From Pseudogemmobacter bohemicus (GTDB lineage: Bacteria; Pseudomonadota; Alphaproteobacteria; Rhodobacterales; Rhodobacteraceae): a stretch of 64,000 nucleotides of DNA. The notes under the pieces were generated by a model, which worked only from the letters and a program-made list of their open reading frames with translations, made no database searches and was not told where the DNA came from. Made by a program: the position numbers and the translations under genes. Shown here piece after piece: positions 1,772 through 60,955 of the stretch (its first letter is position 1; every line of letters begins with the position of its first letter). Where the stretch lies: positions 1,314,656 through 1,378,655 of the forward strand of contig NZ_QNHG01000001.1 of assembly GCF_003290025.1 (NCBI RefSeq), given 5' to 3'.

Positions 1772-2815
1772 TCAGGCCGGGACACGGAAATCAAGCCCAT
1801 CCCCGAGGCCAGCCTCAATCCCGAAGCCCGGTTCACCCTCCGGGCCGGGAATCGCCATTTGTTCCGTTGCGAATCCAGCCGGAAAGTCCATCGCAGCGGG
1901 CGTATTCATCGCCGGAAGATCCGGCACCGAGTCCGCCGGGATACCCGGCTCTGTTTCGCCCTTGCCGCTCGCCACCGCGCTGATCCGCAATGCGCGGTAG
2001 CCGTTTTGCTGCCCCAGCCGTGCCGCAGCCACCGGTTTACCGTCGATCCCCCGCAGGCTGATCTTTGCGATACTGGCCTCGTTCAGCGGCAAAACCTGCC
2101 CCGGCTCCAGCTGCATCACCTCATTCAGGGTCAGCATCCGCCGCCCCAGCACCGCCTGCAATTCGCATTCCGTCTGCCCCAGATCGGCGGAGAATCCCGC
2201 AGGCTCGGGTGCGGTGCCGGCGGGCTCCGCCTGCGACATCTCAGCCAGCGGCAGCGCCAGCAGCATCTCCCCGCTGCGCTTGCCATCGGCCAGTGACAGG
2301 GTGGTGGTCATCAGGTGATAGGGCAGATCATCCAGCAACAGCCCGATGCTGCGCGGATCATCCAGCAATGAGGCAAAGCGGAAACCGCCATCGACGCGGC
2401 GATCCGGCAGGTCGCGGACCAGGAAATCGAACCGCGCCAGCGCCCGGTCAAGCACCGGCGAGATCATCGCGGCATCGGTCCTGGTCGGTCGTCTGGATCC
2501 GGGCGCCACCGTGCCGATACGGCCGATCGTCTGCATCTCGATCAGCGAAGCCGTCAGCTCGGGTGAGAAAGCCGCCACCCCCATCGCGCCCCCCGGCCCG
2601 TCCAGCAGCGCGATCAGCGCGCGCTCGGGCGGCAGCTCCGGCAGTTCCAACAGATCGCAGGGCCGCGAGGACAGCGCCGTGGTTTCCGCAGGCAGCCCCA
2701 CCCCTTCGCGCAGGGCGCGCGCCAAAGCCAGCCGCCAGGCCTGATCAACCAGCGCATGGGGCTGGGGCAGTTCCTCATGCGCGGGGCGAAGTTTGCGGCG
2801 CAGGATCTCGCTCAT
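1772..2815 (-). CDS. FliM/FliN family flagellar motor switch protein
   Basis: The protein of 347 residues opens with MSEILRRKLRP, a form of N-terminus common to this alphaproteobacterial group. A central FliM-like region (about residues 60-200) is followed by a SpoA/FliN-type C-ring module at about residues 215-280 (ELQAVLGRRMLTLNEVMQL, LPLNEASIAKISLRG). The C-terminal 60 residues are acidic and Pro-rich, probably disordered. Such proteins form the cytoplasmic C-ring that sets torque direction and binds CheY-P. No other flagellar gene lies in the window, so it is an orphan next to a sensor kinase. An upstream ATG at 2875 exists, but the MSEIL start fits the family better. Confidence 0.8.
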   Translation of the reverse strand: MSEILRRKLRPAHEELPQPHALVDQAWRLALARALREGVGLPAETTALSSRPCDLLELPELPPERALIALLDGPGGAMGVAAFSPELTASLIEMQTIGRIGTVAPGSRRPTRTDAAMISPVLDRALARFDFLVRDLPDRRVDGGFRFASLLDDPRSIGLLLDDLPYHLMTTTLSLADGKRSGEMLLALPLAEMSQAEPAGTAPEPAGFSADLGQTECELQAVLGRRMLTLNEVMQLEPGQVLPLNEASIAKISLRGIDGKPVAAARLGQQNGYRALRISAVASGKGETEPGIPADSVPDLPAMNTPAAMDFPAGFATEQMAIPGPEGEPGFGIEAGLGDGLDFRVPA

Positions 2816-2937
2816 GCCAATGCTTCCCGTTTTCGTCCAGGTATCGCCATTCTGGTCGCGAGAAGGTTTGCGCAAAGTTAACAGGGCCGGGAAAATCGTA
2901 GCGAAACCGCGCGCCGCCCGCCGCTGCCCGTTTTTTT

Positions 2938-5613
2938 TCAGCCGGGGTCGATTCTCAGCGGCAGCACCACGCGAAAGGCCGCACCGCCCTGGCCGGGAAG
3001 ATAGTCGATGCTGCCGCCCAGATTGGTGACGATCTCGCGGCAGATCGCGAGGCCCAGCCCCGCGCCCGAGGCCCTTGCCTCGCCGGGAAGTCGCCAGAAT
3101 TTCTCGAACACCATGGATTGCAGCGCCTTGGGAATGCCCTTGCCGTTATCCGAGACATCGACCCTGACCCGCCCGCCTTTGACCCGCACCGCGATGCGGA
3201 TGCGCGGATGACTCGAATCGCAATATTTGCGCGCATTGGCGATCAGGTTGATGAACACCTGGGTCAGCCGGTCGGCATCGGTGCGCATCCAGACGGATTC
3301 GGCGATGGTGTCGCGGGTGAATTCGATATCACGCTCGGGCTTGACCTTTTCGGTGGCGAGAATGGCGCGGTCGATCATATCGCGCATGCTGACAAGGCTC
3401 ACTGACAGCTGCACCTTGCCGCTTTCCAGCACCGACAGATCCAGCAGATCATCCAGCAACCGCGTCAGCCGCACCGCCTCGTCGCGGATGATCCCGCCCG
3501 AGCGCGCGACGGTACCGGGCGGCAGATCGCCCTCGGCGAGGATCTCGGAAAAGGCGCGGATCGAGGTCATGGGGGTGCGCAGCTCATGGCTGATCTGCGA
3601 CAGGAACGCGTCTTTCTGCACCGAAAGCGCGGTCAGCTTCTCATTGGCCTCCCGAAGCGCGGTGGCGGTGCGCGAAAGCGCGCCCCGCTGTTCCTCCAGC
3701 TGCGCGGAATGTTCCATCAGCTGCGCGGATTCGCGCGCCACCACCATCAGATCCTCGACCGTCACCGTATCAAGGCCGACCAGTTTCGAGATCATCGCAT
3801 GCGCCGTGGCGGCACCGATGGAGCCGGCGAGCTTCTCCTCAAGCGCGGCGAGGAAGGCGGGCGTCGGGTCGGGCAGCATGGATTCGCTTTTGCCCTGATC
3901 GCGGGCGGCGCGCTCGAAAAGGCCCTGTGCCTCCTCCTCGCCCATGATGCGCTGTGTCATAACAAGCAGCGCCTCGGGCTCTGCCTCGCCGCGCGCCCAG
4001 CGTTGCGGGCCGACCGGGCCATCGAAGACATTGACGAAAACCGCGCTTTGCAGCCGCTCGACCGGGCCGGGGAAGCTCAGGATCGAGGCGGCGCAGAACA
4101 CCGCCGTATTGGCGATCAGCGACCAGAACAGCGCATGGACCAGCGGATCCATCACCTCGGTGCCGAACATCGCCTCGGGGCGCAACCAGCCAAATCCCCA
4201 AAGGCCCTGTTGCAGCACCGAGGCGGGCAGGATCGCATCCCCGAAAGAGGGCAGGAACAGGCAATAGGCCCAGAGCGCGAAACCCGTCCCAAGCCCAAGG
4301 AGCGCGCCGGTCCGGGTGGCGCCGCGCCAGAAAATACCGCCGATCATCACCGGCAGGAATTGCGCGACACCTGCAAAAGAGATCAGCCCGATCTCGGCCA
4401 GCGCCCCCGATCCCCCCGAGACGCGGTAATAGCCGAGGCCCAAAGCCAGCACGAGCGCGATGGAGATCCGCCGTGCATTCAGCACCAGCGAGCGCACATC
4501 CTCGGAAATCGCGCCAGAACGGCGCAGCCTGAGCCAGGTCGGAATCACGATATGGTTCGACACCATGGTGGCCAGTGCAATCGCCTCGACGATCACCATC
4601 GAGGTGGCCGAGGAAAAGCCGCCAAGGAAGGCAAGCATCGCAAGCGCTCCCTGCCCCTCGGCCAGAGGCAGGGTCAGGACGAACATATCGGGGTTGGCGC
4701 CTTCGGGCAGGCGCTCGATCCCCATCACGGCGATGGGGATGATGAAAAGGCTCATCGCCAGCATATAGGCCGGGAATGCCCAGGAGGCGCGGGCCAGCTG
4801 GCGCTCATCGGAATTCTCGACCACGATGACCTGAAACATGCGCGGCAGGCAGATCACCGCCGCGCCGGCAAGGAACAGGATCGCGGTCCATCGCCCCGGC
4901 TGCAACTGCCAGTCATGCAACGAAGACGCGTCGATCTTCGCCATGATGCCCGAGACGCCGCCCGCCAGCCCCCAGACCACGAAACAGCCGACCGCGATCA
5001 GCGCGACCAGCTTGACCACCGCCTCGACCGCGATGGCGGCGACGATGCCGGTATGCTGCTCTTTGGCGTCCAGGTTGCGGGTGCCGAACAGGATGGTGAA
5101 GAGCGCCAGCCCCACCGCCACCCAGATTGCGGTCTGGCCGGCGGCCGGGCGCGCCTCGCCGGGCGCGGCATTGGCAAAGACCTCAAAGGCCAGCACCACC
5201 GATTGCAATTGCAGCGCGATATAGGGCGTCACCGCGACAATCGCGATCACGGTGACCAGCACGCCCAGCGAATTCGATTTGCCATAGCGCGACGAGATCA
5301 GATCGGCGATCGAGGTCAGCCGCTGCCGGCGCCCGATATGCACCAGCTTGCGCAAGATCCACCACCAGCCGATGAAGACCAGCGTTGGCCCCAGATAGAT
5401 CGTGATGAATTCCAGCCCCGAGCGCGCCGCATAGCCCACCGCGCCGTAAAAGGTCCAGGCGGTGCAATAGATCGACAGCGACAGCGTATAGACCATGGGC
5501 GAGCGCAGCCAGCCAAGCTTCCCCTGCCCCGAGCGCCGCTCGACCAGAAAGGCGACGGCGAAGAGGAAGATCACATAGGCAAGGCAAGAGGCGACCAGCA
5601 GGTTGAAAGACAT
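2938..5613 (-). CDS. Sodium/solute symporter-histidine kinase hybrid sensor
   Basis: At 891 residues, this joins an SSS-family (PutP-like) transporter of about a dozen membrane helices (roughly residues 1-520) to a cytoplasmic kinase. A linker with a short coiled coil (about 620-665) precedes HisKA with phospho-acceptor His676 in SHELRTP; the ATPase part shows an N box near 789 (INLIANARKY), DNGKGIP near 823 and GAGLGL near 851. This architecture is known from CrbS-type sensors, where transport or substrate binding is linked to phosphorelay. The start at 5613 follows seven bases after the stop of the small membrane gene. The substrate is unknown. The partner may be the single-domain response regulator upstream at 6482-6994. 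Confidence 0.88.
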   Translation of the reverse strand: MSFNLLVASCLAYVIFLFAVAFLVERRSGQGKLGWLRSPMVYTLSLSIYCTAWTFYGAVGYAARSGLEFITIYLGPTLVFIGWWWILRKLVHIGRRQRLTSIADLISSRYGKSNSLGVLVTVIAIVAVTPYIALQLQSVVLAFEVFANAAPGEARPAAGQTAIWVAVGLALFTILFGTRNLDAKEQHTGIVAAIAVEAVVKLVALIAVGCFVVWGLAGGVSGIMAKIDASSLHDWQLQPGRWTAILFLAGAAVICLPRMFQVIVVENSDERQLARASWAFPAYMLAMSLFIIPIAVMGIERLPEGANPDMFVLTLPLAEGQGALAMLAFLGGFSSATSMVIVEAIALATMVSNHIVIPTWLRLRRSGAISEDVRSLVLNARRISIALVLALGLGYYRVSGGSGALAEIGLISFAGVAQFLPVMIGGIFWRGATRTGALLGLGTGFALWAYCLFLPSFGDAILPASVLQQGLWGFGWLRPEAMFGTEVMDPLVHALFWSLIANTAVFCAASILSFPGPVERLQSAVFVNVFDGPVGPQRWARGEAEPEALLVMTQRIMGEEEAQGLFERAARDQGKSESMLPDPTPAFLAALEEKLAGSIGAATAHAMISKLVGLDTVTVEDLMVVARESAQLMEHSAQLEEQRGALSRTATALREANEKLTALSVQKDAFLSQISHELRTPMTSIRAFSEILAEGDLPPGTVARSGGIIRDEAVRLTRLLDDLLDLSVLESGKVQLSVSLVSMRDMIDRAILATEKVKPERDIEFTRDTIAESVWMRTDADRLTQVFINLIANARKYCDSSHPRIRIAVRVKGGRVRVDVSDNGKGIPKALQSMVFEKFWRLPGEARASGAGLGLAICREIVTNLGGSIDYLPGQGGAAFRVVLPLRIDPG

Positions 5614-30679: not shown

Positions 30680-30765
30680 CATGCCCCCAAATGACCGGCG
30701 AAATGTCAGGGAGCCGCCGCGCCGGGCCGCCCCCAAAGGGCCACCAGAGGCGCGATCAGACTACC

Positions 30766-30848
30766 CGTTCCCTCCGCCGGTATGAACCGGATCAGGTTCG
30801 ATGGGTTAGCCTTTCGGCCTCTCAGCCCCGGTTGCCCGGGACACCCCA
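30766..30848 (-). promoter_or_regulatory. TPP riboswitch (THI element)
   Basis: Read on the minus strand, the conserved elements are in order: CTGAGAGG, ACCC, GAACCTGATCCGGTTCATAC split around the central helices, and GCGGAGGGA, closed by GGGGTGTCC at the 5' side. It begins about 170 bases before thiD and should switch off the ten-gene thi operon when thiamine pyrophosphate is bound, probably at translation because no T-rich terminator follows. Confidence 0.95.
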
Positions 30849-30954
30849 ACGAGTAAGTTGCCCAATCGTTAAGCGCCGCATTTTGGTTTGGCAACCGGCA
30901 AAATCGCACTTTCGGGGCCAAAAGCACCGCGCGGGCGGCGGCTGTCTTTTCCGC

Positions 30955-30972: not shown

Positions 30973-31003
30973 CAGACAATCCGGCGCGCTGCACTGTGGT
31001 CAA

Positions 31004-31203
31004 TTCGCCTTGCAAGGTGCCGCTGGAGACAGCGGAGAATTGGGAAGCCGGTGCGGCCCGAAATGGGTCAAATCCGGCGCTGCCCCCGCAACGGTGGGGG
31101 GAGAGGGCGCGACAAGGACCACTGGGTGGAGGAGCCCGGGAAGGCGTTGCGACCGGGGTCGAAGAGACCACTCCCCAAGCCCGGAAACCAGCCTTGCGAG
31201 AGA
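31004..31203 (+). promoter_or_regulatory. Cobalamin (B12) riboswitch
   Basis: The hallmark segments occur in order: GGTGCC (31016), GGAAGCCGGTGC (31042), AATCCGGCGCTGCCCCCGCA followed by ACGGT (31071-31095), a B12-box-related CCACTGGG (31119), GGGAAGG (31138) and AGCCCGGAAACCAGCC (31178-31194). Outer strands at TTCGC and GCGAG can close the P1 helix. About 135 bases of leader, with a GC-rich hairpin around 31300-31320, separate it from gbcA. Bound cobalamin normally lowers expression of the downstream gene. Confidence 0.93.
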
Positions 31204-31339
31204 ATGTCGAGCCGCGGCGGGCGGTGCAGCGACAACAGGCTCGCGGGTCCATCCCCCGTGCGGGCCGGTTGTGCTGCCTTGTCCATCGCAAGTCAAACCT
31301 GCCCGTGCGGGGAGCGCGGGCTAACGCGAAGGACAGCAG

Positions 31340-32578
31340 ATGCTGAGCCAGTCCGAGACCCTAACGCGCCTTTTGGCGCGCCAGAGCGGCTATGCTCTCG
31401 AACGTGATTTATACTGTGATCCCGGCGTTTTGGAGGCCGATCTTCAACAAATCTGGTATCGCGAATGGCTTTTCGCCATACCGGCCTGTGAACTGGAAAA
31501 GACGGGCGCTTTTGCCACGCTGCAGGTCGGTGCCTATCCGGTGGTGATCATCAAAGGCAAAGACAACCGCATCCGCGCCTTCCACAATGTCTGTCGCCAT
31601 CGCGGCCAGAGGCTTTGCGCGAAGACCAATGGATCGACCACGAACCTTGTCTGCCCCTATCACCAATGGACCTATGATCTTGAGGGCAAGCTGATCTTTG
31701 CCCGCGATATGGGCGAGGATTTCGATCCCGCGAAATTCGGCCTGAAGAAGGTTCACTGCGTCGATCTGGGCGGCATGGTCTTCATCTGCCTGGCCGAAGT
31801 GCCGCCGCCGATTTCCGATCTCGCACCGAAACTGATGTCCTATCTGGCGCCTTCGGGCCTCTCGGATACGAAGGTCGCTTTCAGCTCTACGATTGTGGAA
31901 AACGGCAACTGGAAGCTGGTGATCGAGAACAACCGCGAGTGCTATCATTGCGGCGGCTCGCACCCGTCTTTGTGCCGCACCTATTCCGACAATCCGCGGA
32001 TGACGGCGATGGAGGGTCCCGATTCGGCCTCGCCCGATATTATCGGGCACTGGAAGCGTTGTGAGGCAGCCGGCCTGCCCTCGCGCTTTACCAACCACCC
32101 GAAGATGCAATGGCGGCTGGCGCGGATCCCGCTGCTGAACGGGGCGGAAAGCTATACGATGTCGACAAAGGCCGCCGTGGCGAAACGGATGGGAACCATG
32201 CCGTTCAATGATGCCGGCAGCCTTCTCTTCTTCCACTACCCGAACACCTGGAACCACTTCCTCGGCGATCACGCCATCGTCTTCCGCATCCTGCCGATCA
32301 GCCCGACCGAGACCCAGGTGACCACCAACTGGCTGGTCCATAAGGACGCGGTCGAGGGCGTCGATTACGATCTCGAAACCCTCACCCGCGTATGGCTGAA
32401 TACCAATGACGAAGACCGCCAGGTGGTCGAGGAAAACCAGAAGGGCATCCTCTCGCCCGCCTATGAGCCCGGCCCCTATTCCACCATCCAGGAAGAGGGC
32501 GTCATGCAGTTCATCGACTGGTATGCCGGCGTGATGACCGAACGGCTGAGCCCGAAGCCCGCGATGGCGGCGGAATAA
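31340..32578 (+). CDS. gbcA: Rieske non-heme oxygenase, glycine betaine monooxygenase-like (GbcA)
   Basis: Removes a methyl group from glycine betaine as formaldehyde, using O2, in the GbcA family. The 412-residue protein has the Rieske site Cys85-x-His87 (CRHRG) and Cys105-xx-His108 (CPYHQW), and a catalytic iron site around NNRECYHCGGSH (Glu200, His203, His208). From memory it follows the Pseudomonas GbcA pattern closely, including VHKDAVEGVDYD and AYEPGPYS near the C-terminus. Other quaternary amines (stachydrine, carnitine) are possible substrates. It is followed after three bases by the reductase gene and preceded by a cobalamin riboswitch. Confidence 0.87.
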   Translation: MLSQSETLTRLLARQSGYALERDLYCDPGVLEADLQQIWYREWLFAIPACELEKTGAFATLQVGAYPVVIIKGKDNRIRAFHNVCRHRGQRLCAKTNGSTTNLVCPYHQWTYDLEGKLIFARDMGEDFDPAKFGLKKVHCVDLGGMVFICLAEVPPPISDLAPKLMSYLAPSGLSDTKVAFSSTIVENGNWKLVIENNRECYHCGGSHPSLCRTYSDNPRMTAMEGPDSASPDIIGHWKRCEAAGLPSRFTNHPKMQWRLARIPLLNGAESYTMSTKAAVAKRMGTMPFNDAGSLLFFHYPNTWNHFLGDHAIVFRILPISPTETQVTTNWLVHKDAVEGVDYDLETLTRVWLNTNDEDRQVVEENQKGILSPAYEPGPYSTIQEEGVMQFIDWYAGVMTERLSPKPAMAAE

Positions 32579-32581
32579 GCC

Positions 32582-33673
32582 ATGGGAAAGAGCCAACTGA
32601 ACTGGGCCGCGAACCCCTGGAGCGATTCCGAGCCGCTGGAATGTGCCATGGTGGTGCCCGAGACGCCCGACACCGCCACCTTCACCTTCCGCGCGCCCTC
32701 GGGCGCCTGGTTCGACTATCAGCCGGGCCAGTTCGTGACGCTGGACCTGCCAGTCGATCCGAAAAAGGGGGCGAAGGGCAATGTGCAGCGCACCTATACT
32801 ATATCTTCCTCGCCGTCCCGGCCGCTGTCGATCTCGGTCACGGTCAAGGCGCAGGCGGACAGTATCGGCACGCGCTGGATGCTCGATCATCTGAAACCGG
32901 GGATGCAGATCAAAGCCTATGGGCCGGCAGGGATCTTCAGCTCGCACCGGCATCCGGCAAAGAAGTATCTCTTCATCTCGGCCGGGTCCGGCATCACGCC
33001 GATGATGTCGATGACGACCTGGGCCTGGGATTCGGGCCAGATGCCCGACATCACCTTTGTTCATGCCGCGAAACGGCCGTCGGAGATCCTGCTGAAAAAA
33101 CGGCTGGAGGGGTTTGCCGACCGGGTGCCGGGGCTGAAACTGCGCTTCACGGTCGAGGAAGCCGACCCGTTCCAGACCTGGTCGGGCTATCAGGGGCGGC
33201 TTTCGCAGATCATGCTGGGGCTGATGGCGCCGGATTATCTGGAGCGCGAGGTGTTTTGCTGCGGACCGGAGCCCTTCATGCAGGCGGTGCGCGAGATGCT
33301 GGTCTCGCTGGCCTTTGATATGGAGCATTACCACCAGGAAAGCTTCGGCGCCCCGGTGAGTTCCGAGGCCGAGGCGCCGGTGATTACCGATGTGATCCCC
33401 GACGCAGATGCCGGAGCGCAGATCACCTTTGCCGCTTCCGGTGTAACCAGCCCCTGCGCCGAGACCGATACGGTGCTGGCGGTGGCGAAACGCTCGGGGC
33501 TGAACATCCCTTCGGGCTGCACTTTCGGTCTTTGCGGCACCTGCAAGGTGAAGAAGACCGAGGGCGAGGTGCATATGGTCCATAATGGCGGCATCTCGGA
33601 TGACGAGATCGCGGATGGCTGGATCCTTGCCTGTTGTTCAAACCCGATGGGCAAGGTGACCGTAGAGGTCTGA
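32582..33673 (+). CDS. gbcB: Ferredoxin reductase partner of the Rieske oxygenase (GbcB-like)
   Basis: 363 residues in three modules: FAD-binding (about 15-125; RTYTISSSPSRP), NAD-binding (ISAGSGITPMMSM, FCCGPEPFM near the end of the domain) and a C-terminal plant-type 2Fe-2S domain with Cys ligands in SGCTFGLCGTCK and ILACCSNP. It passes electrons from NAD(P)H to GbcA. Start at 32582 lies three bases after the gbcA stop, so the genes are an operon. Fused reductase-ferredoxins of this type serve betaine monooxygenase and some other Rieske enzymes. Confidence 0.87.
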   Translation: MGKSQLNWAANPWSDSEPLECAMVVPETPDTATFTFRAPSGAWFDYQPGQFVTLDLPVDPKKGAKGNVQRTYTISSSPSRPLSISVTVKAQADSIGTRWMLDHLKPGMQIKAYGPAGIFSSHRHPAKKYLFISAGSGITPMMSMTTWAWDSGQMPDITFVHAAKRPSEILLKKRLEGFADRVPGLKLRFTVEEADPFQTWSGYQGRLSQIMLGLMAPDYLEREVFCCGPEPFMQAVREMLVSLAFDMEHYHQESFGAPVSSEAEAPVITDVIPDADAGAQITFAASGVTSPCAETDTVLAVAKRSGLNIPSGCTFGLCGTCKVKKTEGEVHMVHNGGISDDEIADGWILACCSNPMGKVTVEV

Positions 33674-33749
33674 GTAAAATGACGCATCGGCACCCTTGCC
33701 GGTGCGCCTGAGACGGCTACTCTCCCGCTGGCTGAGAGGGAGAAGAGCC

Positions 33750-34184
33750 ATGACAAAACCGATCCTGATGGATGCGCGCGCGCTGAATGACTTTGTCACC
33801 CGCGATTTCGGCCAGGTGGCGGCAGATTTCACGGTTGATGCGGTGACGGATCAGGGCATCCGGCTGCGGCTGATCGTGGCGGATCGCCACCTGCGCCCGG
33901 GTGGCACGGTTTCCGGCCCCACGATGTTCGCGCTGGCCGATGTGGCGGTTTACCTCGCGATCCTGTCCAGGATCGGGCCGGTGGCGCTGGCGGTGACGAC
34001 GGGCTGCTCCATCGACTTCATGCGCAAGCCCGAGGCCGGGCGCGATCTTTATTGCGATGTGCGGCTGCTGAAACTGGGTCGTGTGCTGGCGGTGGCGGAT
34101 GCGCTGATCTTCTCGGACGGGGTCGAGGATCCGGTGGCGCGGGCGAATATGACCTATTCGATCCCGCCCGCCCCCGGCAGATGA
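33750..34184 (+). CDS. PaaI-family hotdog thioesterase
   Basis: A 144-residue single-hotdog protein. The PaaI-type helix LRPGGTVSGPTMFALADVAVYL carries the acidic catalytic residue (Asp in ALADVA), and TGCSIDFMRKPEAGRDLY is the following strand region (shown in part). It should hydrolyse acyl-CoA thioesters; substrate unknown. GAGAGGGAGAAG precedes the ATG. It follows gbcB by 76 bases on the same strand and may be read from the same transcript. Confidence 0.82.
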   Translation: MTKPILMDARALNDFVTRDFGQVAADFTVDAVTDQGIRLRLIVADRHLRPGGTVSGPTMFALADVAVYLAILSRIGPVALAVTTGCSIDFMRKPEAGRDLYCDVRLLKLGRVLAVADALIFSDGVEDPVARANMTYSIPPAPGR

Positions 34185-34565
34185 AACGGGCGACCAGGGC
34201 GGGCAATGTGGACGGGCGACCCGAGCAGGCGACGCGGGTGGGCGTCAACGACCGGTGGGCGGGTGGAATCGGCAGCGTTCGAATCAATTTGACGACGCCC
34301 TCAGGGAACCCATAGCGGACCGCGCAGCCTTACCCTGGGTCAACGGGCTTATCCCCAGAGATGTACACCATTCTGTCCACGAAACGCCCCGTCTATGGGC
34401 AGGGGCCGCTCCTGGATATTGTGCAAGGTGAAATTTTGCGCGGCCGCGCCCTGTGGGTTTAGAGGCACACATTTGCCCCCAGGATCAGAGGCAAAGCCGG
34501 GATTTCCCCTGATTTCAGGGGGTTTTCAACCCTGAGCCGTCCCGGTCACAGCTGGCATTTCAATA
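34185..34565. other. Intergenic, no supported gene
   Basis: About 380 bases after the thioesterase. Short frames on both strands lack initiation signals. A TTATCCCCA and nearby TGTCCACGA resemble degenerate DnaA boxes but do not form a cluster. The segment leads into the nrd control region. Confidence 0.5.
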
Positions 34566-34612
34566 ACACAAGATGTTGACAGTCAGATAAATCAGAGATC
34601 AATATACAGGTG
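34566..34612 (+). promoter_or_regulatory. Two NrdR-like boxes with an overlapping -35 element, nrd promoter
   Basis: Box 1 ACACAAGATGTTGACA (34566-34581) matches ACACAATATATTGTGT at 12 of 16 positions; box 2 GATCAATATACAGGTG (34597-34612) keeps the CAATATA core. The boxes are 31 bases apart, the three-helical-turn spacing typical of NrdR sites. TTGACA at 34576-34581 is a perfect -35 sequence inside box 1, and box 2 covers the expected -10 zone. NrdR-(d)ATP would then block RNA polymerase. The leader from here to nrdH is about 240 bases. Confidence 0.7.
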
Positions 34613-34851
34613 TTCCAGGGCGCAACTCTGCAGCCTGCGACGTGATGGAAAACCGGGGGGAACCGGGAATTTTCCAGCCGCCGCCAGCAGCAGACAAACC
34701 GATGGGGAAACCCATGGCAAGGCGGGAAACCCGGAACAAAAGTGAAGGCAACAAAACCGTGCGACGGGCGCGAGGATATGCCCGGCGGAAGATCTCCGCC
34801 GGCCGATCCTTTGTGAACCCTTGCCATATGGGACAGTAGAAGGATCAGGCA

Positions 34852-35076
34852 ATGACCATCACCGTTTACTCCAAACCCGCTTGCGTTCAGTGCACCGCCA
34901 CCACCCGGGCGCTGGATGCCAAAGGCTTGTCCTATTCGATTATTGATCTGACCGAAGATGCCGAGGCGATGGATCGCGTTGTTGCGATGGGCTATCGCCA
35001 GGCCCCCGTCGTCATCGCCGGTGATGCGCATTGGGCGGGATTCCGTCCCGACATGATCGGCCGCCTCGCCAGCTGA
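34852..35076 (+). CDS. nrdH: Glutaredoxin-like protein NrdH
   Basis: Reductant for class Ib ribonucleotide reductase. The 74-residue thioredoxin-fold protein has the redox motif Cys11-Val-Gln-Cys14 and the NrdH end signature WAGFRPDMIG. AGAAGGATC precedes the ATG. It is the first gene of the nrdHIEF operon, ten bases ahead of nrdI. Confidence 0.95.
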   Translation: MTITVYSKPACVQCTATTRALDAKGLSYSIIDLTEDAEAMDRVVAMGYRQAPVVIAGDAHWAGFRPDMIGRLAS

Positions 35077-35086
35077 GGGCGCGGTC

Positions 35087-35536
35087 ATGCCCGGGCTTGT
35101 CTTTTTTTCTTCTGCCTCGGGCAACACGCTCCGTTTCGTCACGCGCCTCGAAGAGACCCTCGCCGATACCGCTGAGGGCCGCTGTGCAAAGGTGCTGCGT
35201 ATCCCGATATCCCCGCAGGATCCGATGCCGGATCCGGGCGGGGATTATGTTCTGATCTGCCCCACATTCGCCGATGGCGAGGGGCGCGGCGCGGTCCCGA
35301 AACAGGTGATCCGCTTTCTGAATGACCCCGACCGGCGTGCCGGTCTTAAGGGCGTGATCGCCGGGGGCAACCGGAATTTCGGGACGACCTATGCTCTTGC
35401 GGGCAGGGTTATCTCAGAGAAATGCAATGTGCCGGTTCTGTACAGCTTTGAGCTGGCCGGAACCGAAACCGATATCGCCCGCGTCCGGCGCGGGCTTGAT
35501 CTATTCTGGGGGATGGAATGCTCGACAATGGCGTGA
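35087..35536 (+). CDS. nrdI: Flavodoxin-like NrdI
   Basis: The 149-residue flavoprotein generates the superoxide used to assemble the dimanganese-tyrosyl cofactor of NrdF. The FMN phosphate loop is [13 protein letters not shown] near the N-terminus; [20 protein letters not shown] and [18 protein letters not shown] are the family's FMN loops. Its last 19 bases overlap the nrdE start in another frame, indicating translational coupling. Confidence 0.94.
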
Positions 35537-37644
35537 AGCCGGCGCTGGATTACCATGCGCTGAACGCGATGCTGAACCTCTATGACGGCGAGGGAAAAAT
35601 CCGCTTTGACGCCGACCGTATGGCGGCCAAGCAGTATTTCCTGCAACATGTGAACCAGAACACCGTTTTCTTCCACAACCTGGATGAAAAGCTGCGCTAC
35701 CTGGTCGATGAGGGTTATTACGAACCCGATGTGCTGGACCAGTATTCGCGCAATTTCCAGCGCGCGATCTGGGATGCCGCCTATGAGAAGAAGTTCCGGT
35801 TCCCGACCTTCCTCGGCGCGTTCAAATATTACACCAGCTATACGCTGAAGACCCGCGATGGTCAGCGTTTCCTGGAGCGGTACGAGGATCGTGTCGTGAT
35901 GGTCGCGCTGGCCTTGGCGCGCGGCGATGAGGCGCTGGCGATGTCGTTTATGAACGAGATCCTTTCGGGCCGCTTCCAGCCCGCGACACCGACCTTCCTG
36001 AATGCCGGGAAGATGTCGCGCGGCGAGCTGATCTCGTGCTTCCTGCTGCGGCTGGAAGACAATATGGAATCGATCGGTCGTTCCATCAATTCGGCGCTGC
36101 AGCTGTCGAAACGCGGTGGCGGTGTCGCTTTGATGCTGACCAATCTGCGCGAAGCGGGTGCGCCGATCAAAGGGATCGAGAACCAGTCTTCCGGCGTCAT
36201 TCCGGTGATGAAACTGCTGGAAGACAGCTTCTCTTATGCGAACCAGCTTGGCGCGCGTCAGGGCGCGGGCGCGGTCTATCTGAACGCGCACCATCCCGAC
36301 ATCCTGCGCTTCCTTGATACCAAGCGCGAGAATGCCGACGAGAAGATCCGCATCAAGACGCTGAGCCTCGGCGTCGTGATCCCGGATGTGACTTTTGAAC
36401 TCGCGAAGAAGAATGAGGATATGTACCTCTTCTCGCCGCATGATGTGCAGAAGGTCTACGGCGTGCCCTTCTCGGAAATCTCGGTGACCGAGAAATATGA
36501 CGAGATGGTGGACGACAAGCGGATCAAGAAGAAGAAGATCAATGCGCGGGAATTCTTCCAGACGATTGCCGAGATCCAGTTCGAGAGCGGCTATCCCTAT
36601 ATCATGTTCGAAGACACGGTGAACAAGGCGAACCCGATCCATGGGCGCATCACCATGTCGAACCTCTGCTCGGAGATTTTGCAGGTCAACGAGGCTTCGA
36701 CCTTCCATGAGGATCTGAGCTACGACCATCTCGGCACCGATATCTCCTGCAACCTCGGCTCGCTGAATATCGCGGCGACGATGGACGGGCCGGATATTGG
36801 CGCGACCGTCGAGGCGGCGGTGCGCGCGCTGACCGCCGTGTCGGAAATGTCGGCGATTGATGCAGTGCCCTCGATCCGCCGCGGCAATGACGAGAGCCAT
36901 GCCATCGGCCTTGGCCAGATGAACCTGCACGGCTATCTGGCGCGCGCGCATGTGCATTACGGCTCGCCCGAGGGGGTTGAATTTACCTCTGTGTATTTCG
37001 CGGCGGTGGCCTATCATGCGATCCGCACCTCGAACCTGCTGGCGCGGGAACACGGGCAGAGCTTTAAGGATTTCGACAAGTCGAAATATGCCGATGGCAG
37101 TTTCTTTGACAAATACACGGAAAAGGACTGGCTGCCGGTCTCGGAAAAGGTCACCGAACTCTTTGACGGCGTGACGCTGCCGACCCGTGCGGATTGGGAA
37201 AGCCTGAAGGCCGATGTGATGGCGAGCGGGCTTTACAACCGCAATCTGCAAGCCGTGCCACCGACCGGGTCGATCAGTTACATCAACAACTCGACCTCTT
37301 CGATCCATCCGATCGTGGCGAAGATCGAGATCCGCAAGGAAGGCAAGATCGGGCGCGTCTATTACCCGGCCGCCTTCATGTCGAATGAGAACCTGGAATA
37401 TTACCGCGACGCCTATGAGATCGGGCCGGAAGCCATCATCGACACCTATGCGGCGGCGACCGAGCATGTCGATCAGGGCCTCTCGCTGACTTTGTTCTTC
37501 CCCTCAGAGGCCACCACGCGCGATATCAACAAAGCGCAGATCTATGCCTGGAAGAAGGGCATCAAGACGATCTATTACATCCGCCTGCGCCAGACCGCGC
37601 TGGAAGGGACCGAAGTGCAGGGCTGCGTTTCCTGCACGCTGTAA
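35518..37644 (+). CDS. nrdE: Class Ib ribonucleoside-diphosphate reductase alpha subunit
   Basis: Reduces ribonucleoside diphosphates to deoxy forms. At 708 residues it has an N-terminal RNR domain (without a full ATP cone, as usual for NrdE), the active-site segments [11 protein letters not shown] and [11 protein letters not shown], and [19 protein letters not shown]. The C-terminus ends CVSCTL, the redox pair that takes electrons from NrdH. The start [19 protein letters not shown] at 35518 lies inside nrdI. Its ends and length fit the NrdE family with no disruption. Confidence 0.96.
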
Positions 37645-37656
37645 GGTCAGGCTGAG

Positions 37657-38694
<1,038 letters not shown>

Positions 38695-57976: not shown

Positions 57977-58663
57977 TCACCCCAGTCGGGCAAGTGCACC
58001 GGCCAGATCGCCATAACCGGTAAAGCGGCGCTCATACGCCAGCCCCAGCCGCGCCGCGCAATCCTGCGCCTTCGCATCCAGCGCCGGGTCATCGGTCTGC
58101 GCCTGATAGACCAGTTTCTCATAATTGCCGAAGATCATGTCGCGCAGCTCCGGATGCCGGTCGAGGCCCATCGGCTTCCACACAAAGGCATCGAATTGCC
58201 GCACCAGGAAATCGGTCAGGTAAAAAGCAGTGAATTCCTCTTCGGACCGCGCCGCAAAAGCCTCATTGCCTTCGAAAAACGAATAGCAATGCGGGCCGGC
58301 CACCATCTCGACACCCAGCTCGGCGCAGCGCGCAGCCAACAACCCGCCTGTGCCGCAATCGGCATAAACCACGAAGATCTGGCTATACTCCTCGCGATGC
58401 GCCTTCACAGCCACCTCGACCGCCTCGGTAATCCGGTCGGGCCAGAGATGCAGATTCGCCGGCAGACATTGCAGGTCGAGATGATCCCAGCCATTCGCGC
58501 GTTTCAGATCAAGGATCTCGCGCGCAAGCGCCCCGCAGGCGATCAGCAGGATCCGTCCGGTGCCAGAGCCTGCCACGCCGCTGCCCATGCCTCGACTGGT
58601 CAGGACATCATCGTCCGGAACCGCCGGGGGCATTGCCGGCACTGATATCGCCGGGCCCGTCAT
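57977..58663 (-). CDS. DUF1638 domain protein
   Basis: 228 residues; the DUF1638 core starts at about residue 37 (ILLIACGALAREI) and includes LPANLHLWPDRI, VVYADCGTGGLL and GPHCYSFFEG. The conserved cysteines and histidine suggest metal or corrinoid handling. DUF1638 genes commonly lie with corrinoid-dependent methylamine or betaine methyltransferase genes, as here with the corrinoid protein upstream. The first 35 residues are low-complexity, so a later start is possible. Confidence 0.82.
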   Translation of the reverse strand: MTGPAISVPAMPPAVPDDDVLTSRGMGSGVAGSGTGRILLIACGALAREILDLKRANGWDHLDLQCLPANLHLWPDRITEAVEVAVKAHREEYSQIFVVYADCGTGGLLAARCAELGVEMVAGPHCYSFFEGNEAFAARSEEEFTAFYLTDFLVRQFDAFVWKPMGLDRHPELRDMIFGNYEKLVYQAQTDDPALDAKAQDCAARLGLAYERRFTGYGDLAGALARLG

Positions 58664-58941: not shown

Positions 58942-59640
58942 TCAGGCATTCAGCTGGTTGTGGCGACGCGCGACCAGCTGTTTCGCGGTCTCGACCGCCA
59001 CCGCCGCATCGCGGCAATAGGCGTCGGCCCCGATCGCCTTGCCGAATTCCTCATTCAGCGGCGCACCACCTACGAGGACGATATAATCCTCGCGCATGCC
59101 TTTTTCCTTCAGCGTGTCGATCACCACTTTCATATAGGGCATGGTGGTGGTCAGCAGCGCCGACATGCCAAGGATATCAGGTTGCTCGGCCGCCAGCGCG
59201 TCGAGATATTTCTCGACCGAATTGTTGATCCCCAGATCCAGAACCTCGAACCCGGCGCCTTCCATCATCATCGCGACAAGGTTCTTGCCGATATCGTGGA
59301 TGTCGCCCTTGACCGTGCCGATAACCATCTTGCCCATGCGCGGCGCGCCGGTTTCCGCCAGCAACGGCTTGAGAATGGTCATCCCCGTTTTCATCGCATT
59401 GGCCGACAAGAGCACTTCCGGAACGAACAGGATCCCGTCGCGGAAATCGTCGCCGACGATCTTCATGCCGGCAACCAGCGCCTGGGTCAGCACATCATAG
59501 GGCGTCCAGCCGCGATCCAGCAGGATGCGCGTCCCCTCTTCGATCTCGTCCTTCAGACCGTCATAGAGGTCGTCATGCATTTGCAGGACCAGCTCGTCAT
59601 CGGGAAGTTCCGAGAGGATGATTTCGTCGTCATCGGCCAT
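58942..59640 (-). CDS. B12-binding corrinoid protein (MtbC/MtgC type)
   Basis: 232 residues: a helical cap domain (about 10-95) and a cobalamin-binding Rossmann domain. The signature DxHxxG is GDIHDIGKN (Asp113, His115, Gly118), followed by LGMSALLTTTMP and VLVGGAPL. The histidine provides the lower axial ligand to cobalt. Such proteins carry methyl groups between a substrate methyltransferase (MttB/MtgB family) and a folate or CoM acceptor. No methyltransferase gene is in the window. CTCTCTCCGCTGGAGC upstream on the plus strand gives a GGAG ribosome site for the ATG at 59640. Confidence 0.92.
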   Translation of the reverse strand: MADDDEIILSELPDDELVLQMHDDLYDGLKDEIEEGTRILLDRGWTPYDVLTQALVAGMKIVGDDFRDGILFVPEVLLSANAMKTGMTILKPLLAETGAPRMGKMVIGTVKGDIHDIGKNLVAMMMEGAGFEVLDLGINNSVEKYLDALAAEQPDILGMSALLTTTMPYMKVVIDTLKEKGMREDYIVLVGGAPLNEEFGKAIGADAYCRDAAVAVETAKQLVARRHNQLNA

Positions 59641-59770
59641 GGGGCGCTCCAGCGGAGAGAGTTCTTTCTCCCTCAATGGGCCGAAAGCGACACCGCCACT
59701 CAGATGTTTGCGACATGCGCGAAGAGAAAGCCGACTTCGGTGCGAATCCCCCTTTCCTTCGCCGGTATTT

Positions 59771-59785
59771 GTTCTATTTTTGTTC
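59771..59785. promoter_or_regulatory. LexA (SOS) box, alphaproteobacterial type
   Basis: GTTCTATTTTTGTTC is an exact GTTC-N7-GTTC site, 25 bases upstream of the GTG start of the radical SAM gene and 130 bases from the divergent corrinoid gene. Confidence 0.88.
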
Positions 59786-59809
59786 TCATTACTTCCGAGG
59801 GATCCCACC

Positions 59810-60955
59810 GTGCCAGCCGCCCATCCGTCCAGCCCCACGACGCCCGGCCCCCCGACACCCAGCCCCCCGACGCCGCCTTTGCCCGGGCTGATGCCGGGTC
59901 AGCGCGCAAGGGCGCGCGGCGCCGGCCAGAACGAGACCGGGCGCTATGAGCCGCATCGCCGCGAGGCCGTGGATGACGGCTGGGACCTTCCCGAAGAGGA
60001 TGCGCTTTTGCGCACCGAAATCAGTCTGGAACCCGCAAAATCCGCCCTCAGCCGCAACAACTCTCCCGATCTGCCGTTTGACCGCTCGGTGAACCCGTGG
60101 CGGGGCTGCGAGCATGGCTGTATCTATTGTTTCGCGCGGCCGACCCATGCCTATCTGAACCTCTCTCCGGGGCTGGATTTCGAGACGAAGCTCTTTGCGA
60201 AACCCGGAATCGGCCAGCAGCTGGACCGTGAGCTGCGGGCGAAATCCTATAAGGTGGCGCCAATTGCACTCGGGACGAACAGCGATCCCTGGCAACCGGC
60301 AGAGGTGCGATACCGGGTCACCCGCGAGGTGGTGGAGGTGCTGGCAGCCTTTCAGCACCCGCTGGCAATCACCACACGCGGCACCCTGATCGAGCGTGAC
60401 ATCGACCTGCTGGCACCGATGGCGGCCTTGGGGATCGCCCGGGTGGGCATCTCGATTACCACTCTGGATCAGGGCCTTGCGCGACGGATGGAGCCCAGGG
60501 CGCCGGCGCCGGCGCGACGGTTGCAGATCATCCGGCGGCTGAGCGAGGCGGGCATCCCCGTGCGGCTGATGCTGGCACCGGTGATCCCGGGCCTGACCGA
60601 TCACGAGATTGAACCGCTGCTTGAGGCGGCGCAGGAGGCCGGGGCCACCAGTGCCAGCTGGATTTCACTGCGGCTTCCGCAAGAGGTGGCGGGGCTGTTT
60701 CGCGACTGGCTGGAGCGGGCAGAGCCAGGGCGGGCGACAAAGGTTATGAACCGGGTGCGTGAGATGCAGGGCGGCAAGGACTATGACGCGACTTTCGGCA
60801 AAAGGATGCGCGGCGAAGGCCTGTGGTCGCGGCTGATCGCCGACCGCTTCCGACGCGCATCGGCAAAGCTGGGGCTGGACCAGCCGCAACCGGCGCTCCG
60901 CTGCGACCTGTTCCGGGTGCCGTTTGCCAGAGGTGACCAGCTGGGCCTGTTCTGA
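59810..60955 (+). CDS. PA0069-family radical SAM protein
   Basis: 381 residues from a GTG start with GAGGG upstream. The [4Fe-4S] motif is Cys100-x3-Cys104-x2-Cys107 in NPWRGCEHGCIYCFAR; IALGTNSDPWQPAE and LAITTRGTLIERDIDLLAP are the following barrel strands of the family (related to Rv2578c and distantly to spore photoproduct lyase). Substrate unknown; the LexA box suggests a role after DNA damage. The N-terminal 30 residues are Pro/Thr-rich, made by a 15-bp repeat. Confidence 0.87.
   Translation: MPAAHPSSPTTPGPPTPSPPTPPLPGLMPGQRARARGAGQNETGRYEPHRREAVDDGWDLPEEDALLRTEISLEPAKSALSRNNSPDLPFDRSVNPWRGCEHGCIYCFARPTHAYLNLSPGLDFETKLFAKPGIGQQLDRELRAKSYKVAPIALGTNSDPWQPAEVRYRVTREVVEVLAAFQHPLAITTRGTLIERDIDLLAPMAALGIARVGISITTLDQGLARRMEPRAPAPARRLQIIRRLSEAGIPVRLMLAPVIPGLTDHEIEPLLEAAQEAGATSASWISLRLPQEVAGLFRDWLERAEPGRATKVMNRVREMQGGKDYDATFGKRMRGEGLWSRLIADRFRRASAKLGLDQPQPALRCDLFRVPFARGDQLGLF
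59833..59877. repeat. 15-bp tandem array, three units, at a gene 5' end
   Basis: Units of the form CCCCCGACGCCCGGC place CGA at 59838, 59853 and 59868. They encode PTPGP/PTPSP/PTPPL at the N-terminus of the radical SAM protein, outside the catalytic domain. Confidence 0.85.

Follow-up and report, generated by a model that had tools for sequence, protein, structure and literature searches.

The 64,000-nucleotide stretch of Pseudogemmobacter bohemicus DNA analysed here, the whole of which is referred to as the window, carries a cobalamin (vitamin B12) riboswitch followed by a gbcA-like gene for the alpha subunit of a Rieske oxygenase and a gbcB-like gene for its reductase, together written gbcAB (Table 1). 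A preliminary description of this DNA had claimed a complete B12 riboswitch with a GbcA-like oxygenase and its reductase as the first genes downstream, and both claims were borne out. An Rfam covariance search matched RF00174 at full length with 105.7 bits, the gathering score of the model being 31.5, and the two genes follow on the same strand, both proteins falling under their NCBIfam cut-offs (for the gbcB-like protein 364.8 vs 500 bits). The gbcA-like gene starts ~130 bases 3' of the aptamer, and its RF00174 leader is, on sequence grounds, a predicted cobalamin-responsive element.

Table 1. Features of the window, with positions counted from its first base.
Feature	Position	Strand	Evidence
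Cobalamin riboswitch aptamer (RF00174)	30998-31210	+	cmscan 105.7 bits, E 1.9e-25, model 1-189, not cut off
P13-like hairpin, 5 bp, loop GGCGG, expression platform	31211-31225	+	21-leader alignment
Anti-Shine-Dalgarno strand, predicted	31277-31289	+	minimum-energy folds, window sequence alone
gbcA Shine-Dalgarno region	31326-31336	+	GCGAAGGACAG just 5' of ATG 31340
gbcA-like Rieske oxygenase alpha subunit, quaternary-ammonium demethylase type	31340-32578	+	PF00355, PF00848; NF058607
gbcB-like reductase (FAD, NAD, 2Fe-2S)	32582-33673	+	NF058606 364.8 bits; PF00970, PF00175, PF00111
Hotdog thioesterase-like gene, possible operon member	33750-34184	+	TIGR00369 37.8 bits
nrdH	34852-35076	+	PF00462
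nrdI	35087-35536	+	NCBIfam model match
nrdE	35518-37644	+	NCBIfam model match
nrdF	37720-38694	+	NCBIfam model match
DUF1638 protein, adjoins mtgC-like gene	57977-58663	-	PF07796 113 bits
MtgC-like corrinoid protein	58942-59838	-	NF047996 202.2 bits

The expression platform opens with a short hairpin, which we take to be P13 both in label and in its kissing role. When 21 leaders were aligned 97.1% of its cells were paired, two of its five pairs had changes on both sides and it outscored every slid register in cells paired and in covariation score. When the leader is folded in full, its minimum-energy structure pairs the anti-Shine-Dalgarno strand with the Shine-Dalgarno region; a fold of 31206-31350 alone pairs the same strand with 31214-31226, in the P13 region, and leaves the Shine-Dalgarno region mostly in short local pairs. 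As modelled, these two folds exclude each other, as is expected of such a leader, and no terminator-like site was found on the + strand between the aptamer and the gbcA start codon; from both observations we infer that gbcA is controlled at translation.

The gbcA leader is one of 11 RF00174 riboswitches in the genome. Eight of the other ten stand in front of TonB-receptor plug domains (loci L005 and L007), the gene of a periplasmic binding protein (L004), CbtA cobalt transporters (L001, with the identical L002 and L003, and L009) or cobW (L008), which leaves L010 and L011 unassigned. L001-L003 are identical 3216-base stretches of one contig (G000:C5:43457-46672, 138696-141911 and 259790-263005), in each of which a B12 riboswitch is accompanied by a CbtA-type cobalt transporter gene. 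L011 (G000:C5:97722-100930) has a weaker B12 riboswitch of 61.9 bits, the downstream side of which is met by an opposite-strand open reading frame that by eye looks like a transposase and has no Pfam match. A thiamine pyrophosphate riboswitch (30752-30858, - strand, 73.9 bits) heads divergent thiamine genes in the window, and another is present at L012, the closest relative.

Since calling riboswitches by pattern alone made errors (L026 was unconfirmed, and a strict rule missed L014, L082 and L100), the counts that follow are based on covariance models; a gbcA locus or genome is called riboswitch-bearing or riboswitch-less according to whether a cobalamin riboswitch lies directly upstream of gbcA. 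Of 198 Rhodobacteraceae genomes 47 had a GbcA-like match at E<=1e-60, and the 37 with a match at 1e-150 were kept, the ten with weaker matches being dropped. Comparison of gbcA and RF00174 coordinates by eye showed that 16 of the 37 have the riboswitch on the same strand as gbcA, 55-140 bases upstream of it. It was found in front of gbcA at 28 of 80 named loci, 27 times strongly and once barely over the cut-off (L024). RF00174 had been applied to 59 of these loci; a second model, R1, applied to all 80, added just one partial match upstream of gbcA (L075), and of the 27 riboswitches from which R1 was made 26 come from loci searched with it here or below and are self-matches by construction. The two weak riboswitches (L024, 5762-5937, 31.8 bits with RF00174; L075, 5708-5780, 35.4 bits with R1) are possibly losses in progress.

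The pairing was also found beyond the family. A class-wide sample of 385 genomes (E<=1e-120) gave 11 further GbcA-like genes; seven of them, which represent five families, are directly preceded by RF00174. Among 398 genomes sampled across the phylum 50 had a GbcA match, and of 26 new loci taken from them nine have a riboswitch by R1, seven of the nine from one further alphaproteobacterial family; it was found at none of the nine loci from outside the class, which we guess to be gammaproteobacteria. Eight loci were searched from 235 plasmid-collection records with a GbcA match and five had the riboswitch; R1 alone was applied to these and to the out-of-class loci. Carriers include Sinorhizobium meliloti (L263, on a replicon labelled psymB), Ruegeria sp. 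TM1040 (L265), Phaeobacter gallaeciensis and Roseibium, the last belonging to a different order, Hyphomicrobiales. In a protein tree with 126 members, 50 of them riboswitch-bearing, parsimony required 14 changes of riboswitch state vs at least 30 in 300 label shuffles, and the riboswitch therefore appears to be inherited, yet repeatedly gained or lost. Neighbourhoods are otherwise mixed: across 110 loci (flanks of up to 6 kb per side for 80 of them and of up to 1.5 kb for the other 30) gbcA was called in 107, gbcB in 91 and the next commonest gene in 15, and the riboswitch keeps close upstream of gbcA while the surrounding genes vary. Riboswitch-gbcAB is probably a B12-sparing module in several alphaproteobacterial families, which is broader than first proposed.

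A B12-dependent counterpart is at hand in most of these genomes. The preliminary description had placed a corrinoid protein at 58942-59640; one is indeed present, but the + strand translation of that interval had no NCBIfam family match and the true reading frame is 58942-59838 on the minus strand. Its 202 bits are below the MtgC cut-off of 370, yet MtgC is the best-matching of all families, both MtgC models being of the type 'exception'. At 27 kb from gbcAB this gene says little by itself, because MtgB-like genes are near-universal in Rhodobacteraceae. The window genome has four MttB-family genes, one of which (G000:C1:1307201, MtgB-like) scores 389 bits to the glycine betaine methyltransferase 9yce and 713 to 4yyc, a 'putative trimethylamine methyltransferase'. 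Its relatives (E<=1e-190) occur in 180 of the 198 genomes and in all 16 riboswitch-bearing ones of the family, so that GbcAB would usually be a second, cobalamin-free route. The co-occurrence of gbcAB with mtgB and mtgC had been suggested earlier as a check; mtgC lies near gbcA at two of the 80 loci, and the presence of MtgB-like genes, being so nearly universal, does not discriminate. All 23 riboswitch-bearing genomes scored for it have an MttB-family gene, and the median number of copies was 4 in these vs 1 in 25 riboswitch-less genomes (p 3e-6, with kinship ignored and draft-genome fragments counted). CbiC, a marker of corrin synthesis, is present in the window genome and absent from eight of the 37, which apparently lack corrin synthesis. 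Four of the eight are riboswitch-bearing (G114, G182, G026 and G163, 99-100% complete). The sole other B12 riboswitch of G182 and of G163 heads a TonB-dependent receptor, and G114 has three B12 riboswitches in all, one in front of a TonB-dependent receptor, one in front of nrdHIEF and one in front of gbcAB.

The company that gbcAB keeps also touches on B12. In two Roseibium loci (L058 and L077) riboswitch-gbcAB stands head-to-head with mtgC-like, DUF1638 and pterin-binding mtgD-like genes; the DUF1638 model was tested in L077, the mtgD-like one in both and a corrinoid methyltransferase model in L058, where a formate-tetrahydrofolate ligase lies on the opposite side of the module and the open reading frame between the DUF1638 and mtgD-like genes (2691-3596) had no family match. 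Roseibium aquae has two gbcA copies, one with the riboswitch beside mtgC (L058) and one without, beside a dgcA-like gene (L045). Near gbcA in the 80 named loci are nrd genes (9), metH (3), mtgC (2) and dgcA-like genes (12). The last, a label of our own for genes whose best model is an old-yellow-enzyme type oxidoreductase, adjoin none of the 28 riboswitch-bearing and 12 of the 52 riboswitch-less loci (Fisher p 0.006). Among the 37 genomes nrdI is present in 14, within 6 kb of gbcA in six (four riboswitch-bearing, two riboswitch-less), and metH in 18, within 4 kb in four; random placement (10 kb either side, 4-Mb genome) would give this with probabilities of 4.5e-11 and 1.8e-6, respectively, although these genomes are related. 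The window itself has nrdHIEF (34852-38694, + strand; nrdIEF by TIGR00333, TIGR04170 and TIGR04171), a class Ib ribonucleotide reductase that is itself B12-independent. The preliminary description had left this cluster out, and no riboswitch of its own precedes it here (no RF00174 in 33500-35600 at E<=5). The hotdog thioesterase-like gene ahead of it had a tblastn match in one of the 80 named loci, L012. CbiM cobalt genes are neighbours in L024 and L056, and in two Paracoccus loci SECIS_3 elements lie ~2 kb after gbcA (L013, 9071-9129; L032, 9062-9120).

By the curated cut-off the oxygenase does not count as GbcA: the window protein scores 498.9 bits on NF058607, whose equivalog cut-off is 670, and that cut-off was passed in none of the 37 Rhodobacteraceae genomes. 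Its closest solved chains are 3n0q, 3vca and 4qup, with 545 bits to the latter two, which we take to be Stc2. In the available text of PMC7948474 group Vb comprises glycine betaine or proline betaine demethylases and is recognised by Asn at the position of CntA Tyr203. The window protein has this Asn, mapped by hand through the shared E-C-x-H-C motif, together with that motif and the Rieske CxH and CxxH, and N198-R-E-C-Y-H-C is the same in all 79 homologues that were aligned. It probably acts on a betaine-like quaternary ammonium compound. Glycine betaine is favoured because the riboswitch-bearing L234-L236 come near the cut-off (631-653 bits) as sisters of out-of-class proteins, the two scored of which (L257 and L261) pass it, and because no riboswitch precedes the S. 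meliloti copy in the stc cluster (L264) or the Paracoccus pantotrophus copy linked to hpbD (L270), the second S. meliloti copy (L263) having one.

Taken together these observations make it probable that the riboswitch turns gbcAB into an isozyme that spares B12. When cobalamin is available the aptamer would bind it, the P13-like hairpin would form and the gbcA ribosome-binding site would be closed, and betaine methyl groups would reach tetrahydrofolate by way of MtgB, the corrinoid protein MtgC and MtgD. With cobalamin scarce the leader would open, and the O2-dependent GbcA with GbcB would remove the methyl group without a corrinoid, yielding formaldehyde. Repression by B12 is presumed here from the usual sign of this riboswitch class, and we likewise infer that glycine betaine is the substrate, that control is translational and that this is the physiological purpose. 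Such a switch had been proposed in the preliminary description, and it has gained support from the pairing in several families, the near-universal MtgB-like gene, the mtgC, DUF1638 and mtgD-like genes of Roseibium, the proximity of nrdHIEF and the riboswitch-bearing genomes without CbiC. That the pairing recurs in many alphaproteobacteria suggests that a B12-free route is used when the vitamin is short.

Several observations weigh against this account. Many close gbcA homologues, including every Paracoccus locus among the 80, are without the riboswitch, as is G135 despite its MtgB-like gene. MttB presence fails to separate riboswitch-bearing from riboswitch-less genomes (23/23 vs 21/25, p 0.11); the four MttB-less genomes are all riboswitch-less, yet so are 21 that have MttB. 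Both nrd genes (G088, G161 and six Paracoccus loci) and metH (G046, L018 and L061) stand near riboswitch-less gbcA too, and this company therefore ties gbcAB to B12 matters and does not mark the riboswitch. A B12-dependent metH behind riboswitch-gbcAB, as in L213 and L214, is not predicted by a plain isozyme model. The P13-like hairpin is in neither minimum-energy fold of the leader, folds which leave out kissing loops, and this tempers the case for translational control. Lastly, the S. meliloti stc-cluster protein has 498.5 bits on the GbcA model, about the same as the window protein.

This equality of scores, with the 545 bits to 3vca and 4qup, leads to a reading that overlaps the B12-sparing one: the switch logic would be the same but the substrate would be a quaternary ammonium compound other than glycine betaine, such as proline betaine (stachydrine), and GbcAB would replace an MttB-family methyltransferase other than MtgB. 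Riboswitch-bearing Rhodobacteraceae do have extra MttB clades, e.g. clade B in 12 of 16 vs 7 of 21 riboswitch-less genomes (p 0.02, on a tree of 90 of the 106 matches with the low-scoring ones excluded). We consider another substrate rather unlikely, in that the stc and hpbD-linked copies are without the riboswitch while L263 has one, and the riboswitch-bearing proteins nearest the GbcA cut-off are sisters of proteins that pass it.

The remaining readings give the riboswitch another purpose, or none. Betaine has an established use as an additive when B12 is made by fermentation, as the available text of PMC8123684 has it, and CbiC is present in the window genome, so gbcAB might be raised at low B12 in order that betaine-derived glycine and one-carbon units feed corrin synthesis. 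The four riboswitch-bearing genomes without a CbiC match, two of them with a TonB-dependent receptor behind their sole other B12 riboswitch, speak against such precursor supply and for B12 sparing, and make it quite improbable. Alternatively, the riboswitch might truly serve nrdHIEF with gbcAB as a passenger: nrdH starts 1.2 kb past gbcB on the same strand, and in 11 of the 14 genomes with nrdI these genes have their own B12 riboswitch elsewhere. Within the stretches examined, however, nrd genes occur in just three of the 28 riboswitch-bearing named loci (L012, L056 and L078) and not in the other 25, and in L212, L214 and L215 nrdH has a separate riboswitch beside riboswitch-gbcAB, which leaves this reading with very little credit. 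Least probable of all is that the window leader is decayed or non-responsive; decay has its known cases in L024 (31.8 bits) and L075 (a 35-bit partial match with R1), but the window copy is full length, scores 105.7 bits and retains the platform hairpin.

The B12-sparing reading has close relatives among known systems. Examples of B12-independent isozymes under a cobalamin riboswitch are metE and nrd genes. They share with gbcAB the RF00174 aptamer and the logic of a B12-free alternative for times when B12 is short, but they act on methionine synthase or ribonucleotide reductase, whereas in the window the target is a Rieske oxygenase whose substrate would be a methylated compound. The available text of PMC3766115 has 'isozymes of B12-dependent enzymes' as a category in Rhodobacterales riboswitch regulons; 'betaine', 'Rieske' and 'oxygenase' are absent from its main text, the supplementary tables being outside the search, and an entry there or in a regulon database is possible. 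In the literature searched we found no link between a B12 riboswitch and gbcAB. The B12-dependent route to be bypassed is MtgBCD of Ruegeria pomeroyi, where SPO2160 is mtgC and SPO2162 is DUF1638 (PMC12478193, in the part available), and the window has an mtgC-like and a DUF1638 gene; the same text handles GbcAB as a separate pathway of limited occurrence, and its one use of the word 'riboswitch' is in the title of a reference. In Pseudomonas and Chromohalobacter GbcAB is also a pair of oxygenase and reductase and is the best NCBIfam match of the window protein, which differs in being below the curated cut-off, while all nine out-of-class loci differ in being without the riboswitch. As for Stc2 of S. 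meliloti, the stc-cluster protein has 55% identity to the window protein and the same GbcA-model score, and the stc locus (L264) has stc4 and stc3 adjoining, a divergent LysR-type gene and no riboswitch.

A wider possibility, which we hold tentatively and with more doubt than belief, is an alphaproteobacterial B12 triage regulon in which riboswitches reserve scarce cobalamin for methionine synthesis. If betaine demethylation and methionine synthesis shared the one corrinoid protein MtgC, the breakdown of betaine would deplete the cobalamin pool that methionine requires. At low B12 the riboswitches would then open together GbcAB, taking betaine off the corrinoid protein, NrdHIEF, sparing the B12-dependent reductase, and in some genomes a dedicated MetH. 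Split metH genes lie on the same strand 46 and 88 bases behind riboswitch-gbcAB in L213 (473-4374, -) and L214 (3328-7187, -), and in L215 (5049-9570, +) 537 bases behind a further B12 riboswitch. QueH, the B12-free counterpart of QueG, might belong here too, a further B12 riboswitch preceding it in G026 (L221, 3560-4887, -; PF02677 214.7 bits). If true, triage would reverse the usual rule by which the riboswitch restrains solely genes of B12 supply and of B12-free enzymes. Betaine is of major importance as an osmolyte and as a nutrient, and many of the genomes examined combine a demethylation route for it that requires B12 with one that requires O2 and iron. If the B12-sparing reading is true, B12 supply would set the fate of betaine methyl groups, as methyl-tetrahydrofolate or as formaldehyde.

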